This document shows positions 15,144-21,143 of a DNA stretch of 64,000 nt, one piece after another (the first letter of the stretch is position 1; each line of letters opens with the position of its first letter). Source of the stretch: Candidatus Palauibacter polyketidifaciens (GTDB taxonomy: Bacteria; Gemmatimonadota; Gemmatimonadetes; Palauibacterales; Palauibacteraceae); the NCBI RefSeq assembly GCF_947581785.1, contig NZ_CANPVO010000039.1, forward strand, positions 1 to 64,000, read 5' to 3'. Both the position numbers and the translations under genes were made by a program. The notes beneath the pieces were generated by a model, which had not been told where the DNA came from, ran no database searches, and saw only the letters and a list, made by a program, of their open reading frames with translations.

Positions 15144-17861
15144 TCAGCCCGCCGGTGCTCCGGAGAGGGTGCGCGCGACCTCCACCACCTCGTAGCACTC
15201 GATCACATCGCCGACCTTGATGTCGTTGTAGTTCTCGATCGAGATGCCGCACTCGTACCCGTCCTTCACCTCGCGCACATCCTCCTTGAACCGCCGCAGG
15301 CTGTCGATCCGACCCTGGTAGATCTGGATCTGGTCGCGCAGGAGGCGGATCGGAAGGTTGCGGCGCATCGTGCCGGACTGGACGTAGCAGCCGGCGATCG
15401 TCCCCGCCTTCGGGACGCGGAAGAGCTCACGGATCTCGGCCATGCCGACCGTGATCTCGCGCTGCTCGGGCGCGAGCAGGCCTTCGAGCGCGAGACGGAT
15501 CTCCTCGACTGCTTCGTAGATCACGTTATAGATCCGGATCTCGATCGACTCCCGTTCCGCGGCGACCACCGCTCCGGCGTCGGGCCGGACGTGGAAGCCG
15601 ACGATGATCGCCTCCGAAGTCGAGGCCAGAAGAATGTCGGACTCGTTGATGCCGCCGACCGCCCGGTGGATGACCTCGACCGAAACCTCGTCGGTGGACA
15701 GCCGCTCGAGGCTGTCGGAGAGCGCCTGGACCGACCCATCCGTATCGCCCTTGATGACGACGTTCAGGCGCGCGCCCTTGCCCGCCTTGACCGCGGCGAA
15801 GACATCCTCGAGCCGCGTCCCGGTCGCCCGGCGGCGGATGTCCTTCTCCCGCTCGAGTTGCTGGCGCCGCGAGACGATCTCGCGAACTCTCGCCGCGGAA
15901 AGGGCGACGAGCGAATCCCCAGCCTGCGGTACGCCCTCCATCCCGAGCACCCGCACGGGGATCCCCGGGCCGGCGCTCGTGACTTTTCGGCCCCGCTCAT
16001 CGAGGAGCGCGCGGACACGCCCGCCGTAGAGTCCGCAGACGAAGTCGGCGCCGACCTCCAGCGTCCCCCGCTCCACGAGCACGGTCGCAACCGGACCCAT
16101 GCCGCGGTCGAGCTGCGCCTCGACGACGGTCCCGCGGGCCTCTCTCTCCGGGTTCGCCTTCAGCTCGAGGATCTCCGCCTGCAGAAGGACCTTCTCCAGA
16201 AGGTCGTCCAGCCCTTCGCCCGTCTTCGCCGAGACCTCCGCGCCGAGGATCTCGCCGCCGAAGTCCTCGAGGACGACTTCGCGCGCCAGGAGTTCCCGCT
16301 TGACGCGATCGACGTCCGCCGACGGGAGGTCGACCTTGTTCACCGCGACGACGATCGGCACCGACGCGTTCCGGGCGTGGCTGATCGCTTCGATCGTCTG
16401 AGGCATCACGGAGTCGTCGGCAGCCACCACGAGGATCACGATGTCCGTGACTTCCGCGCCGCGCGCCCGCATCGCCGTGAACGCCTCGTGGCCTGGCGTG
16501 TCGAGGAAGGTGATCGTCCGGCCCCCGGCGAGGACCACGTGGTACGCGCCGATGTGCTGGGTGATGCCTCCCGCCTCTCCCGCGATCACGTTCGTGCTCC
16601 GGATACGGTCGAGCAGCGAGGTCTTTCCATGGTCGACGTGGCCCATCACGGTCACGATCGGCGGCCGGGACACCAACTGGCTCTCGTCCTCGGGCACGTC
16701 TTCGTCGTCGCTCGCGAGGTCCGCCTCGAAGCCCTCCTCCCGGATCGCCGTGAAGCCGGCCTCTTCGCAGATCAGTTCGATCTGGCCGAAGTCGAGCCGC
16801 TGATTGATCGTCACCATGAGGCCGAGGTTCTTGAACGCCGAAGTGATGATGGCCTGCGGCGGGACCTCGATCAGGTCGGCGAGTTCGGACACGGTGAGGA
16901 ACTCGTTGACCCGAACCGTCGCCTTCTCCGTGCGCTGTTCGAGTTCGCGCTGCTCGCGCTCCGCCTCGCGCTGCTGTTGCTGCGTTTCGCGCCGCCGCTT
17001 CCGCGGCGAGGACTGCCCCATCGCGGCGAGCGTCTTGCGGAAATTCTGCTGGACGGCGTTTCGATCCACGCGCCGCCGCTTCTTCCCGTCTCCGCCGCGC
17101 GATTTCTTGCGACCGTCGACGGTGTAGCCTTCGGCCGAGATTCGCACCTTGCCGCCGGGACCCGCCGAAGCTCTTGGGCCGGAGGGCGCGGAGGGAGCCG
17201 CGGGCGACGGCATGTCACGGCGGACCGGCTTCGGCCGACGCGCGGGGCGCGCCGGAGCGTCCGGCTCCTCCGCTGCCGCTTCCGTCTCCGCCGGTTCCGC
17301 TTCGGGTTCGGCGATTTCCGTCTCCGCCGACTCCGCCGTCTCGACGGGCGCTTCGGCCGCCGCCGGCTCGTCCGCCTCCGGAGCCGGCGCCTCGGGTTCA
17401 TCGGCGAGCTCCCGAGCGATTTCGGCTTCAGGCTCGACTTCGGGCTCAGGCTGCGGCGTCTCGGTCACAACATCGGGCTCGGGCCCGATCTCGGTCCCGA
17501 CCGCGGTCTCGGCCTCCGCCGGAGATTCGATTTCCGGCACATCGGTGGCCGCAGCAGCCTCCTCTTCCGCAATCTCGGGGGGCGGCTGGACCTCTTCTTC
17601 AGCCTCGATCTCCGTGGTCGCGGTCGTGAGCGACGCGGGAGCGGCCCTCCGCCGGCGACGGCGTCGCCGCACGGGAGCCGCGGTACCGGTAACGGCCTCA
17701 CCCCGCCGCTCGCGCTCGAGCCGCGCATGGAGACGCGCCACACTCGCGGAGTCCACGCTCGACATGTGGCTTCGCACGGGCACATCCATCTCACGCAGCA
17801 ACTGGATGAGGTGACTCGTATCGAGTCTCAGTTCCTCTGCGACCTCGAAGACACGCTTCAT
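15144..17861 (-). CDS. infB: translation initiation factor IF-2
   Basis: GTPase that brings initiator fMet-tRNA to the 30S subunit and promotes subunit joining. In the 905-residue protein, residues 1-50 form an IF2N helical domain, about 60-235 is a long Glu/Pro/Ala/Arg-rich linker, and a second IF2N-type domain ends near 375. The G domain has GHVDHGKT (407-414), DTPGHEAF and NKVD. Domains II-IV follow. The linker is low complexity and probably disordered, as in many high-GC bacteria. The ATG overlaps the ylxQ stop (ATGA). Confidence 0.98.
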
Positions 17862-18241
17862 TGTCCAGGCACCTGCCCTTCCGGATCTCCTTGCGACCCG
17901 GAGCTCTCGTCACGCCGCGAGGGCGCGCGCTCCCCTTCGAGAATCCGCTGCGCCAGCGCCGAATCCGTGACGCCGACCACAGCTACGTCGTTCCGTCCGA
18001 GCGCCCGTCCGAGCGCTCTGCGGCTCGCGACCGTTACACGCGACGCCCGCCGCGCCTGTGGAGTCAGGCGGCCCAGCGCATGCCTCGATGCGTCGCCCGC
18101 AACCACGAGCAGGGCGAGCCTTCCCCTGCGCGCCGCGATATCCACGGCCCGCGTTCCGAGAGCGACCCGGCCCGCGCGCGTCGCGATCCCGAGCAGGCTC
18201 AGCGTACCCCCGGCCCGAGCCCGACCTCCGCCGCGCTTCAG
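17858..18241 (-). CDS. ylxQ: L7Ae/L30e-family RNA-binding protein (YlxQ-like), probable CTG start
   Basis: Small kink-turn RNA-binding protein usually encoded between nusA and infB. The recognisable family region is LSLLGIATRAGRVALGTRAV (about residues 15-34), followed by VVAGDAS, then NDVAVVGVTDSALAQRIL near the end. No ATG, GTG or TTG in frame lies far enough upstream; the first usual codon is a GTG at 18145, which would remove the conserved N-terminal helix. A CTG at 18241 overlaps the nusA stop as CTGA and has GAGGGG five bases before it, so I take it as the start (127 residues). The companion ylxR gene, often found here, is absent. Confidence 0.8.
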   Translation of the reverse strand: MKRGGGRARAGGTLSLLGIATRAGRVALGTRAVDIAARRGRLALLVVAGDASRHALGRLTPQARRASRVTVASRRALGRALGRNDVAVVGVTDSALAQRILEGERAPSRRDESSGSQGDPEGQVPGQ

Positions 18242-19695
18242 GAGGTCCCCTCGCCCGAGGCCGCCGCGCTCATCGCGTCGGCCGCTTCCGCGGATGCCGC
18301 CTCCGCAGGCGCGTCCGGTACCGCCGCCTCCGAGGGTGCATCCGGCGCCTCCGCCTCCGCGGACGCCTCGACAGCCGTCTTCGCAGCCGCGGCGACCTCG
18401 GCCTGCGCCTCGTCCACGACGGTGAGTTCGTCGATGAGCGATTCCAGTGTGTCCGCCTCATCGGGCCCGATCCCCGGGACCTGAAGGAAATCGCTTCGAT
18501 CCATGTCGAGGAGTCCGTAAAAGCTGCTGACCCCGGCCGCCTCGAGCGCCGCGAGCGTCGCCGGGGCGATCCCCTCGAGCTCGGAGAGCGGGAAGTCGGA
18601 CATTTCGTACTCGTCGTCGCCTCCGAACAGGCCGGCCTCTCCGCCGCGCTCCATCCAGTCACGGCTGGAATACAGATCGATCTGCCAACCGATGAGCTGT
18701 GACGCCAACCGCACGTTCTGCCCGTTCCGTCCGATCGCCAGCGACAGCTGGTCCTCGTCCACGATCGCCGTAATGACGTGCCGCTCCTGATCCGAGATCA
18801 CCTTGGCGACCCGGGCCGGAGCCAGGGCTCGGCGCGCGAAGATCTCAGGGTCCGGGTGCCACGGCACGATGTCGATGCGTTCCCCGCTCAACTCCGACAC
18901 GACCGCCTGCACGCGCGACCCTTTGAGACCGACGCAGGCCCCGACCGGGTCGACCGACTCATCGCGGGATGCGACGGCCACCTTGGTGCGTCCGCCCGCT
19001 TCACGGACGATCTCCTTGATGTCAACGATATTCTGGTAGATCTCCGGCACTTCGAGCGCGAACAACGAAGCGACGAACTGGGGATCCGCCCGCGACAGGA
19101 TGAGCCGCGGGCCGCGCGGCGTCTCCTCCAGCAGCTTCAACACGGCGCGGATCGGCTCGCCCTGGCGGAAGCGTTCCCGCGGGTTCTGTTCCCGCCACGG
19201 GATGATCGCCTCGGCCTCACGGGACCGGTTCAGCATGACGACGAGTTTTCCGCGCTCGCTCGCCTGCACTTCGCCGGAAACGAGGTCTCCCACCCGGTCG
19301 TTGAATTCCATGCGGATCCGGTCGCGTTCCCCCTCGCGGATGCGCTGGATGATCCTCTGCTTCGCGGCCATGACCGCGCTGCGCCCGAAATCCCTGAAGT
19401 CGACGGGGATCTCCATGAGGTCGCCCACCTGGAAATCGGGGTCATCCCAGCGGGCCTGCTCGAGCGTCACTTCCCGGGCCGGATCCTCGACTTCCTCGAC
19501 GACTTCCTTGAGGACGACGATCGAGATGTCGCCCTCCTCGGTGACGTCGATTTCCGCTTCGACCGGACCGCCGAAACGACGGGCGAGCGCCGCATGGATC
19601 CCTTCGCGGATGAGATCATGCAACTCCAGCTCCGTCAGCGACTTGTTCGCCGCCATCATGCGGAATGCTTCAACGATCGGGATCTGATCGCTCAT
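18238..19695 (-). CDS. nusA: transcription termination/antitermination factor NusA
   Basis: RNA polymerase-associated factor that modulates pausing, intrinsic termination and antitermination. The 485-residue protein has the N-terminal RNAP-binding domain (about 1-130), an S1 domain (about 135-200, GDLVSGEVQA) and tandem KH domains with CVGLKGSRVQAVVSEL and SLAIGRNGQNVRLASQL. A helix-hairpin-helix-like C-terminal region follows (about 375-430). The last 50 residues are an Ala/Glu/Pro-rich tail of EAPDAPSEAA-type repeats. It lies 9 bases after rimP. A possible leader attenuator precedes the rimP-nusA operon. Confidence 0.98.
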   Translation of the reverse strand: MSDQIPIVEAFRMMAANKSLTELELHDLIREGIHAALARRFGGPVEAEIDVTEEGDISIVVLKEVVEEVEDPAREVTLEQARWDDPDFQVGDLMEIPVDFRDFGRSAVMAAKQRIIQRIREGERDRIRMEFNDRVGDLVSGEVQASERGKLVVMLNRSREAEAIIPWREQNPRERFRQGEPIRAVLKLLEETPRGPRLILSRADPQFVASLFALEVPEIYQNIVDIKEIVREAGGRTKVAVASRDESVDPVGACVGLKGSRVQAVVSELSGERIDIVPWHPDPEIFARRALAPARVAKVISDQERHVITAIVDEDQLSLAIGRNGQNVRLASQLIGWQIDLYSSRDWMERGGEAGLFGGDDEYEMSDFPLSELEGIAPATLAALEAAGVSSFYGLLDMDRSDFLQVPGIGPDEADTLESLIDELTVVDEAQAEVAAAAKTAVEASAEAEAPDAPSEAAVPDAPAEAASAEAADAMSAAASGEGTS

Positions 19696-19704
19696 TGCGT
19701 CTCT

Positions 19705-20196
19705 CTATCTCCCACCCACGCCCCGAGCCGCGTCCCAGTCGTAGACCAGGCGGGCGGAGGCCACGAGCTCCAGCGGGATCTCCACACGATCCCCTTCGAT
19801 CTCCAGCGCGAACGTCCCGGGAAGTCCGTCCACCGTCCCGAGCAGCGTCCCTTCCAGTTTTCGGCCGCGATCGGCCAGGGGGCCGTAACCCCTGACGCGG
19901 ATCCGCGCCCCGGCGAAGCGGTCGTAGTCCGCGGCCCTGACCAGCGGCCGGTCCACTCCGGGCGACGACACTTCGAGCACCCAGTCGTCGGCCGCCCCAT
20001 CTTCAAGTGCGCCACGCAGTTCCCTCGTCACCGCGACGCAATCGTCGACGGTGACGCCCGACCGCGCGGACGACGGACCCGGCCGATCGATCCGGAGCCT
20101 GAGCAACGGCCGGCGACGGCCTCCGCCCCGCTCCATCTGCACGACCTCGAAGCCGAGGGCTTCGACGGCGCGTTCGATGTCCGCCGAGTCCAGCAT
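19705..20196 (-). CDS. rimP: ribosome maturation factor RimP
   Basis: 30S assembly factor needed for proper S12 incorporation. The 163-residue product matches RimP: an N-terminal alpha/beta domain starting IERAVEALGFEVVQMERG, the conserved block VTVDDCVAVTRELRGALE, then EVSSPGVDRPLVRAADYDRF, the family signature (about residues 75-95), and a C-terminal SH3-like domain. It is the first gene of the rimP-nusA-ylxQ-infB strand. Confidence 0.95.
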   Translation of the reverse strand: MLDSADIERAVEALGFEVVQMERGGGRRRPLLRLRIDRPGPSSARSGVTVDDCVAVTRELRGALEDGAADDWVLEVSSPGVDRPLVRAADYDRFAGARIRVRGYGPLADRGRKLEGTLLGTVDGLPGTFALEIEGDRVEIPLELVASARLVYDWDAARGVGGR

Positions 20197-20232
20197 GACC
20201 GACCCTTTCGGCGAATCCGGTTCGCCCTACTG

Positions 20233-20268
20233 CAAAAAAAAGTGGGGCCCGTACAGCTTCCCCACTTC
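20233..20268 (-). terminator. intrinsic terminator between pgeF and rimP (possible attenuator)
   Basis: On the minus strand AAGTGGGG (20267-20260) pairs perfectly with CCCCACTT (20247-20240), with a 12-base loop, and the stem runs into a block of eight Ts (20241-20234). This is a textbook Rho-independent terminator. It ends 37 bases before the rimP start. It could close the murA-pgeF unit, or, because a promoter-like sequence lies upstream of it, act as an attenuator in the rimP-nusA-infB leader. Confidence 0.88.
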
Positions 20269-20300
20269 GAGTAACGCAATCGCCCGCCGGCCCGCGCGGA

Positions 20301-20330
20301 CGTATGTGGACATGCGACCCGGAACATACG
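20301..20330 (-). repeat. inverted repeat CGTATGT/ACATACG in the rimP leader
   Basis: CGTATGT (20301-20307) and ACATACG (20324-20330) are perfect inverted repeats with a 16-base spacer. The right arm coincides with the candidate -10 element. It could be an operator or a leader RNA stem. Confidence 0.4.
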
Positions 20331-20351
20331 GCGGGGGCCGACCGGCGGCAA
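20323..20351 (-). promoter_or_regulatory. candidate promoter of the rimP-nusA-infB operon
   Basis: On the minus strand TTGCCG (20351-20346) and TATGTT (20328-20323) are 17 bases apart. Each matches four of six consensus bases. Transcription would start near 20316, upstream of the intrinsic terminator at 20233-20268, leaving a leader of about 120 bases before rimP. The window 20197-20381 holds no gene. Confidence 0.45.
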
Positions 20352-20381: not shown

Positions 20382-21143
20382 TCAGCCGCTCCGCAGCCCG
20401 AGGAAGGCGGCCATCCGTCCCGCCGCCCCGCCGCTCGCGCGGTGCGAATGGAGGTCGCCGGGACCGCAGGAGGTGCAGTAGCGGGAACTCGAGAGGGCGT
20501 CGGGTGCGACGCCAGCCGTCGCGGCCTGGGCGGCGAGGATCTCCCTCAGATCGAGCCGCGCGCGCGTGCCGCCGAGGCCGAAAGCGGAAAGCACTGGGGT
20601 GTCGACCTCGTAGCAGCGCCCGCAGATCGCGGGCCCGAGATGGACGCGGAGATCCCCGATGGCGCCGGATGGACGGCGGTCGAGGCCGCGAACGAGCCGG
20701 GAGATCGCGCGCGGCAGGATGCCGGCCGCGGCCCCGCGCCACCCGGCGTGGATCAGCCCGATGCGCCCGAGTTCGCGCGACCACAGGTAGACGGGCACGC
20801 AATCGGCGGCCGTCGCGGCGAGGAGCCAGCCGGGCCCGTCGACGAGCTGGCCGTCCACGCGACCCGGCCGGTCGACGGTGCAGACCGCCGGGTCCGCGGC
20901 GGGCGCGCCTCTGATCTCCCGGAGATCCGTGCCGTGGACCTGAGTCGGTACCGATACCCGGCGGAAGCCGAGTTCCCGGGCGAGATCCGCGTAGACCGCG
21001 GCCACGCGCTCCGGTGGGACATCCGCGACCGCGAGATCCCCGCGCTCCGCCGTCGTGATCCCGCACACGACGGTCGGATCGAGCGATTCCCACTGCGACA
21101 ACCGCAGCAGGCCATCCTTCGGGGTCTCCGCGACCTCCGTCAT
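20382..21143 (-). CDS. pgeF: PgeF/YfiH-family laccase-domain protein
   Basis: Cytoplasmic enzyme of the laccase-domain family (YfiH). E. coli PgeF removes non-canonical UDP-MurNAc precursors that carry Ser instead of Ala; other members show purine nucleosidase/phosphorylase activity. The 253-residue protein has the metal-site motifs in order: TQVHGTDL (about residue 60), TAADCVPVYL (about 105), IHAGWRGAAAGIL (about 125) and HLGPAICGRCYEV (about 165). ATG 21143 overlaps the murA stop (ATGA). Being the partner of murA supports a peptidoglycan-precursor role. An intrinsic terminator follows about 110 bases downstream. Confidence 0.9.
   Translation of the reverse strand: MTEVAETPKDGLLRLSQWESLDPTVVCGITTAERGDLAVADVPPERVAAVYADLARELGFRRVSVPTQVHGTDLREIRGAPAADPAVCTVDRPGRVDGQLVDGPGWLLAATAADCVPVYLWSRELGRIGLIHAGWRGAAAGILPRAISRLVRGLDRRPSGAIGDLRVHLGPAICGRCYEVDTPVLSAFGLGGTRARLDLREILAAQAATAGVAPDALSSSRYCTSCGPGDLHSHRASGGAAGRMAAFLGLRSG

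Follow-up and report, generated by a model that had tools for sequence, protein, structure and literature searches.

The locus lies on the minus strand of the window, by which we mean the whole 64-kb stretch (64,000 nucleotides) analyzed here, in the order murA-pgeF-gap-rimP-nusA-infB. The gap between pgeF and rimP is 185 nt long and contains one promoter-like site and one terminator (Table 1). The NusA protein of the window is 98% identical to that of several MAGs, and 91-95% identical to that of relatives labelled Candidatus Palauibacter.

Table 1. Features of the rimP-nusA-infB locus and of the gap upstream of rimP (window coordinates)
Feature	Coordinates	Strand	Remarks
infB	15144..17861	minus	operon gene downstream
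nusA	18238..19695	minus	proposed effector and target
rimP	19705..20196	minus	first gene of the operon; ATG at 20196
Terminator-rimP interval, 37 nt	20197..20233	minus	holds the rimP ribosome-binding region; promoter-like sites: none
Intrinsic terminator	20234..20267	minus	34/34 positions invariant in the genus
Leader before terminator, ~48 nt	20268..20315	minus	43/48 positions invariant, 10 genomes
Predicted transcription start	20315 (about 20317-20313)	minus	inferred from -10 spacing; pairwise difference drops there
-10-like hexamer TATGTT	20323..20328	minus	17-nt spacer to -35; 6/6 positions invariant, 10 genomes
-35-like hexamer TTGCCG	20346..20351	minus	genus form TTGC[CA]G; 5/6 positions invariant, 10 Palauibacter-type genomes
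pgeF	20382..21143	minus	upstream neighbour; place not constant among relatives

The terminator is formed by a stem (AAGTGGGG, 20267-20260, paired with CCCCACTT, 20247-20240), a 12-nt loop (20259-20248) and a T-run to 20234 on the minus strand. The base of the stem consists of two A-U pairs, so that the element can be counted as an 8-bp stem with 6 T or as 6 bp with 8 T. The first-pass annotation had described a perfect 8-bp stem with 8 Ts; the terminator held up, but the T count did not, as two of the Ts sit inside the stem. In 74/80 leaders, the tail has a non-T within positions 3-9, a count that covers these leaders and no comparison set of factor-independent terminators. Its position 37 nt before rimP agrees with the coordinates (20234 versus an ATG at 20196), and lies within the 4-130 nt before rimP of rimP-nusA-infB that serve as the distance criterion for a rimP-leader. 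The fold has a predicted energy of -12.7 kcal/mol (z -2.2). A strict terminator rule matched a single place in the 64-kb window and none in each of 40 dinucleotide shuffles, the only T8/A8 run of the window falls in this terminator, and the terminator pattern was found once in the 3.2-Mb genome. A hairpin scan overlooked the element because its maximal loop length was 8. A small hairpin (GGCGAACCGGATTCGCC, 20226-20210, minus strand) directly precedes the rimP ribosome-binding region; in a relative (L007) it shows a single change that retains a G-U pair.

A terminator stood in front of rimP in every Gemmatimonadota leader examined. Among 62 loci gathered by similarity of NusA and not of the leader, rimP was present in 61, and all 61 had a hairpin with T-run at most 80 nt before rimP, as does the window. 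Nearly all 61 hairpins are built on GTGGGG/CCCC[A/G]C. The 62nd locus (L063) belongs to Omnitrophota, and its genome has rimP and nusA with the motif before neither. A second terminator rule was passed by 81/81 Gemmatimonadota leaders (60 of the rimP-bearing loci, the window and 20 genomes missed by an RNA model) and by 44 of 1620 shuffled regions. The strict rule, applied to 544 kb of loci, found 44 terminators before rimP and 3 elsewhere. The upstream neighbour in relatives is pgeF, murA or neither, and the terminator persists in each case; in L007, about 1 kb separates pgeF from an intact promoter-terminator unit.

The RNA model just mentioned, a covariance model of 35 leaders, matches 143 of 249 phylum genomes (E<=0.01), and RimP_N was detected in 219 of the 249. 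Of the 106 genomes without a model match, 20 for which a RimP_N place was listed supplied regions upstream of rimP, and all 20 have a terminator with altered flanks (for example ATGTGGGG/CCCCACAT, GTGTGGGG/CCCCACAC or GCGGGC/GCCCGC). The flanking pairs thus covary, while the GGG/CCC core is constant. The first-pass annotation had suggested looking for covariation of the gap in related genomes, and the 35-row alignment does contain two pairs that change on both sides, with a score reached by 3 of 500 shuffles. This alignment and a table of the 30 best model matches used GTGGG or GGG...CCC as anchor, which makes the core invariance there partly a product of construction; neither the hairpin search in the 61 loci nor the rule for the 81 leaders required GGG/CCC letters, and the letter-free hairpin search still yielded GTGGG stems in relatives. 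All 30 best matches (in a table from which duplicates and entries whose T tail was weak had been dropped) stand before rimP and nusA; beyond them, the individually checked matches are the 20 regions examined for the rimP-less arrangement described below.

The sigma70-like promoter of the window is weak, and near chance when taken alone. It scores 8/12, and when the 185-nt gap was shuffled 500 times, 46 of the shuffled versions held a site as good. It becomes credible because its position is conserved in relatives: the window site coincides in place with their clear consensus promoters, in which the homologous -10 site reads TATAAT, TATATT or TATCAT. In the 130 nt before the terminator, promoters of at least 9/12 were found in 45/81 and of at least 10/12 in 20/81 Gemmatimonadota leaders, two of which (L013 and L043) begin too close to a contig end to be scored and were entered as misses. 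The corresponding controls were 0.85 and 0 (shuffle means) and 3 and 0 (reverse complement). The distance from the end of the -10 to the stem is 35-52 nt in the middle half of the leaders and 57 nt in the window. In the intervals between terminator and rimP, sites of at least 9/12 were found in 0/81 leaders and sites of at least 8/12 in 2/81. The claim made at the outset, that the promoter lies upstream and not downstream of the terminator, thus fits the only site of at least 8/12 in the gap of the window, and the reading of the order promoter-terminator-rimP as an attenuator is strongly supported by conservation.

Sequence constraint within the genus follows the predicted transcript. Pairwise comparison of 10 Palauibacter-type genomes gives mean differences of 0.243 for the part ahead of the -35, 0.000 for the -10, 0.225 from the -10 to the assumed start, 0.032 for the leader and 0.000 for the terminator with its loop; the fourfold sites of rimP give 0.145. 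The onset of conservation coincides with the transcription start predicted from the sequence.

An inverted repeat (CGTATGT, 20330-20324, and ACATACG, 20307-20301, minus strand, with a 16-nt gap) is indeed present at the promoter, as the first reading had it. The further suggestion that it forms a competing RNA structure had to be given up: the 5' arm overlaps the -10 hexamer and a neighbouring stretch, all before the predicted start, and therefore cannot pair in the mRNA of this promoter. The dyad spans the -10 and the predicted start, and its arms are invariant in 10 genus members, while letters just past the -10 vary in the genus. It could be a DNA operator.

A conserved first hairpin was considered and rejected as not general, with a mean z of -0.56 over 58 distinct leaders, 7 of them below -2. 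Three leaders (L034, L053, L059) show a tandem arrangement, in which another hairpin, followed by a T-run of its own, is located directly upstream of the leader terminator.

In a number of genomes that lack rimP, the promoter-terminator unit directly precedes nusA. Among Gemmatimonadota, this is the case in 12 genomes for which no RimP_N match is listed, and in which the unit lies at most ~160 nt before nusA and leaves no room for rimP. They come from 20 inspected regions, the remainder having the unit before rimP (3), before neither gene (4, all second or weak model matches) or at a short contig end (1). Promoters of at least 9/12 were found in 4/12 and of at least 10/12 in 0/12 of these nusA-first leaders (shuffles, 0 and 0).

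Omnitrophota show the same arrangement. We found nusA in 38/38 genomes, 22 without and 16 with rimP in front. A GTGGG hairpin with T-run stands directly before nusA in 15 of the 22, and before rimP in 9 of the 16; between rimP and nusA it was found in 0/16. The motif was absent within the search range in 7/22 rimP-less and 7/16 rimP-bearing operons, the latter including G314, where a hairpin lies ~230 nt upstream; as the search pattern was [AG]TGGG...CCC[AG][CT], a terminator of another form in front of either gene does not enter these counts. A promoter of at least 10/12 was present in 13 of the 15 nusA-first leaders (shuffle mean 0.13), three of them at 12/12, and most of these promoters lie 21-36 nt before the stem. 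In three Omnitrophota (L220, L236 and L246, about 0.9-1.3 Mb), a terminator-like hairpin of reversed polarity precedes nusA, with a C-rich 5' arm, a G-rich 3' arm and a T-run.

RimP_N was not found in 30/249 Gemmatimonadota and 21/38 Omnitrophota genomes, a pattern that points to repeated losses of rimP in the two phyla; judging from family labels, there were likely at least two or three separate losses in Gemmatimonadota. By its distribution in these genomes, the element goes with nusA(-infB) and not with rimP; this speaks for NusA feedback. The 15 hairpin-bearing Omnitrophota operons without rimP all have infB after nusA; the element is not separated from infB, and association therefore cannot tell NusA from IF2.

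The element of the window belongs to the known rimP-leader of Naville and Gautheret (2010, PMC2965389). As in that family, the terminator stands directly before rimP-nusA-infB at a distance within 4-130 nt, with a G-rich 5' arm, a C-rich 3' arm, conserved sequence, a T stretch and no antiterminator. Of the consensus GGGc(...)gCCC, the window keeps GGG/CCC, but its next inner pair is G-C and not C-G. The 5' arm also has a longer core here, GUGGGG, whose U faces A or G. The 2010 survey left undecided whether RimP or NusA reads the hairpin, and its main text does not name Gemmatimonadota. The present case differs from that account in the phylum, in the documented position of the promoter, and in the units that immediately precede nusA in genomes lacking rimP. 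For the rimP-less arrangement, no paper was found among the open-licence papers searched, which says nothing of the wider literature.

Several operons of this type have been studied experimentally. In B. subtilis, NusA is autoregulated through NusA-stimulated termination in the leader (PMC12288461); a leader terminator governs transcription into the nusA operon there as well, but that work used a NusA depletion strain, whereas the evidence for the window comes from sequence. The rimP-nusA-infB operon of Streptococcus agalactiae likewise has a predicted intrinsic terminator in its leader, and one start gives rise to a short and a long RNA, for which NusA feedback was proposed (PMC4448216). The short RNA ends 31 nt past the start in that species, compared with ~82 nt predicted for the window. 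In E. coli, terminators are also located upstream of rimP and NusA affects the operon transcripts, which go up in mutants with reduced NusA termination (PMC6511841); the E. coli operon differs in that metY, a tRNA gene, lies ahead of rimP together with several promoters and two terminators. The passages of a pneumococcal paper matched in the literature search concern CiaR alone.

Searches with Rfam did not reveal the element. The RF01770 covariance model had no match in the genome (E<=0.001) or in the window (gathering score), and no Rfam cis-regulatory family was found in the window at gathering score. At loose thresholds, the gap matched only a microRNA model and others that scored well under their cut-offs; these were discarded as noise from a GC-rich hairpin.

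NusA is essential in E. coli and B. subtilis, where it acts in termination and pausing, and its amount has to be controlled. We interpret the locus as a transcription attenuator of the rimP-leader type that would exert NusA negative feedback on rimP-nusA-infB, and assign this reading a probability of roughly 0.7. In silico, a promoter lies upstream of the terminator and none between the terminator and the first gene. RNA polymerase would start near 20315, make a leader of ~48 nt and then meet the terminator at 20267-20234, where polymerase-bound NusA would aid hairpin formation and pausing. With abundant NusA, mostly a short RNA of ~82 nt would be produced; when free NusA is scarce, readthrough into rimP-nusA-infB would increase and close a negative feedback loop. 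Judging from the comparative data and from other bacteria, NusA probably limits its own production through such a leader switch. The exact start, the fraction terminated and the role of NusA, rather than another factor, as the setter are the parts that we infer. The distance from the assumed start to the stem is small (median 35 nt; at most 12 nt in 8/77 leaders) and leaves little room for a ligand-binding domain. Sensing therefore most likely takes place at the complex of hairpin and polymerase, for which NusA is the natural candidate by analogy with other bacteria.

A terminator of fixed efficiency, which would end the murA-pgeF transcript, damp the rimP promoter by a constant factor and sense nothing, is an unlikely alternative that has some points on its side. 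We found no alternative structure: pairing of the terminator 5' arm with the leader (0.38) shows no excess over shuffled leaders (0.46), and the whole leader of the window is no more stably folded than shuffles (z -0.08 and 0.08). The shortness of the leaders fits as well, and a fairly strong 8-bp stem with a T-run could terminate without NusA. Against a fixed efficiency, the unit stays with nusA whatever the upstream gene and whether rimP is present or absent, intrinsic terminators are otherwise almost absent from the loci, and feedback has been reported for B. subtilis (PMC12288461).

An attenuator under the control of a different factor (RimP, IF2, NusG or cold-shock proteins) is, in our estimate, rather improbable. 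Feedback by RimP was raised as a possibility by Naville and Gautheret (PMC2965389), but the element persists where RimP_N was not found. A proposal of antitermination by Csp proteins in the E. coli operon is cited in PMC6511841, where the authors' own data are inconsistent with it. Within this group, IF2 and NusG are still candidates.

There is little to recommend the idea that the terminator belongs to murA-pgeF only, with the rimP promoter downstream of it. The end of pgeF lies ~115 nt upstream of the stem, where a terminator would be unremarkable; this arrangement is nevertheless at odds with the location of the only site of at least 8/12 in the gap, with the lack of any downstream promoter of at least 9/12 in the 81 leaders, and with terminators that persist beside murA or neither gene. 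Least probable of all, a 28-codon frame (MSTYVRAGRRAIALLEVGKLYGPHFFLQ, 20313-20227, minus strand), which begins at the predicted transcription start and crosses the terminator, would couple readthrough to translation in the genus: it is reported in 9/10 genus genomes (L006 shows an earlier start instead), but by our reading the few leader changes include three that affect the peptide sequence and two silent ones, and no such frame is reported in L009, L011 and L012, with a different one in L010.

Related leaders occur in other bacteria. In Zixibacteriota, 13/30 leaders passed the terminator rule and 17/30 failed it, several of the latter having a GTGGG or similar hairpin near the start codon without a good T-run. 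In five cases (L146, L152, L153, L154, L155), a hairpin before rimP is close to the start codon and its T-run is very short or missing, as if it had a role other than termination. Enterococcus and Listeria leaders read GAGTGAG...CTCACTC, the Pseudomonas leader ATGGGCG...CGCCCAT, and the Salmonella leader has a shorter GGG/CCC hairpin. Mimicry of 16S rRNA (a segment containing AGUGGGG) was considered and dropped, as the GAGTGAG leaders of Enterococcus and Listeria do not fit. Leaders in Staphylococcus phage and gut phage records have GAGTGGG...CCCGCTC, with U opposite G as in some Gemmatimonadota, and are probably host DNA. Several phage-labelled records carry rimP (and nusA where annotated) and resemble host chromosome.

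The preferred reading, NusA feedback through a rimP-leader attenuator, can tentatively be extended. The letters of the stem are conserved and not the pairing alone, and it is possible, if doubtful, that the GUGGG/CCCRC hairpin is nusA's own sensor of NusA, ancient and sequence-specific, and was kept with its promoter across phyla despite the loss of rimP. Such a sensor would be spread over at least Gemmatimonadota, Omnitrophota, Zixibacteriota and some Bacillota, with some Zixibacteriota keeping the hairpin just before the start codon without a good U-tract. The nusA-first units in rimP-less genomes of two phyla amount to natural genetic evidence against RimP as the reader of the hairpin, and also explain the failure of Rfam-based annotation to see the element in these bacteria. 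If the sensor interpretation is true, the hairpin would be recognized directly by NusA or by NusA-bound polymerase, and not act as just any terminator.
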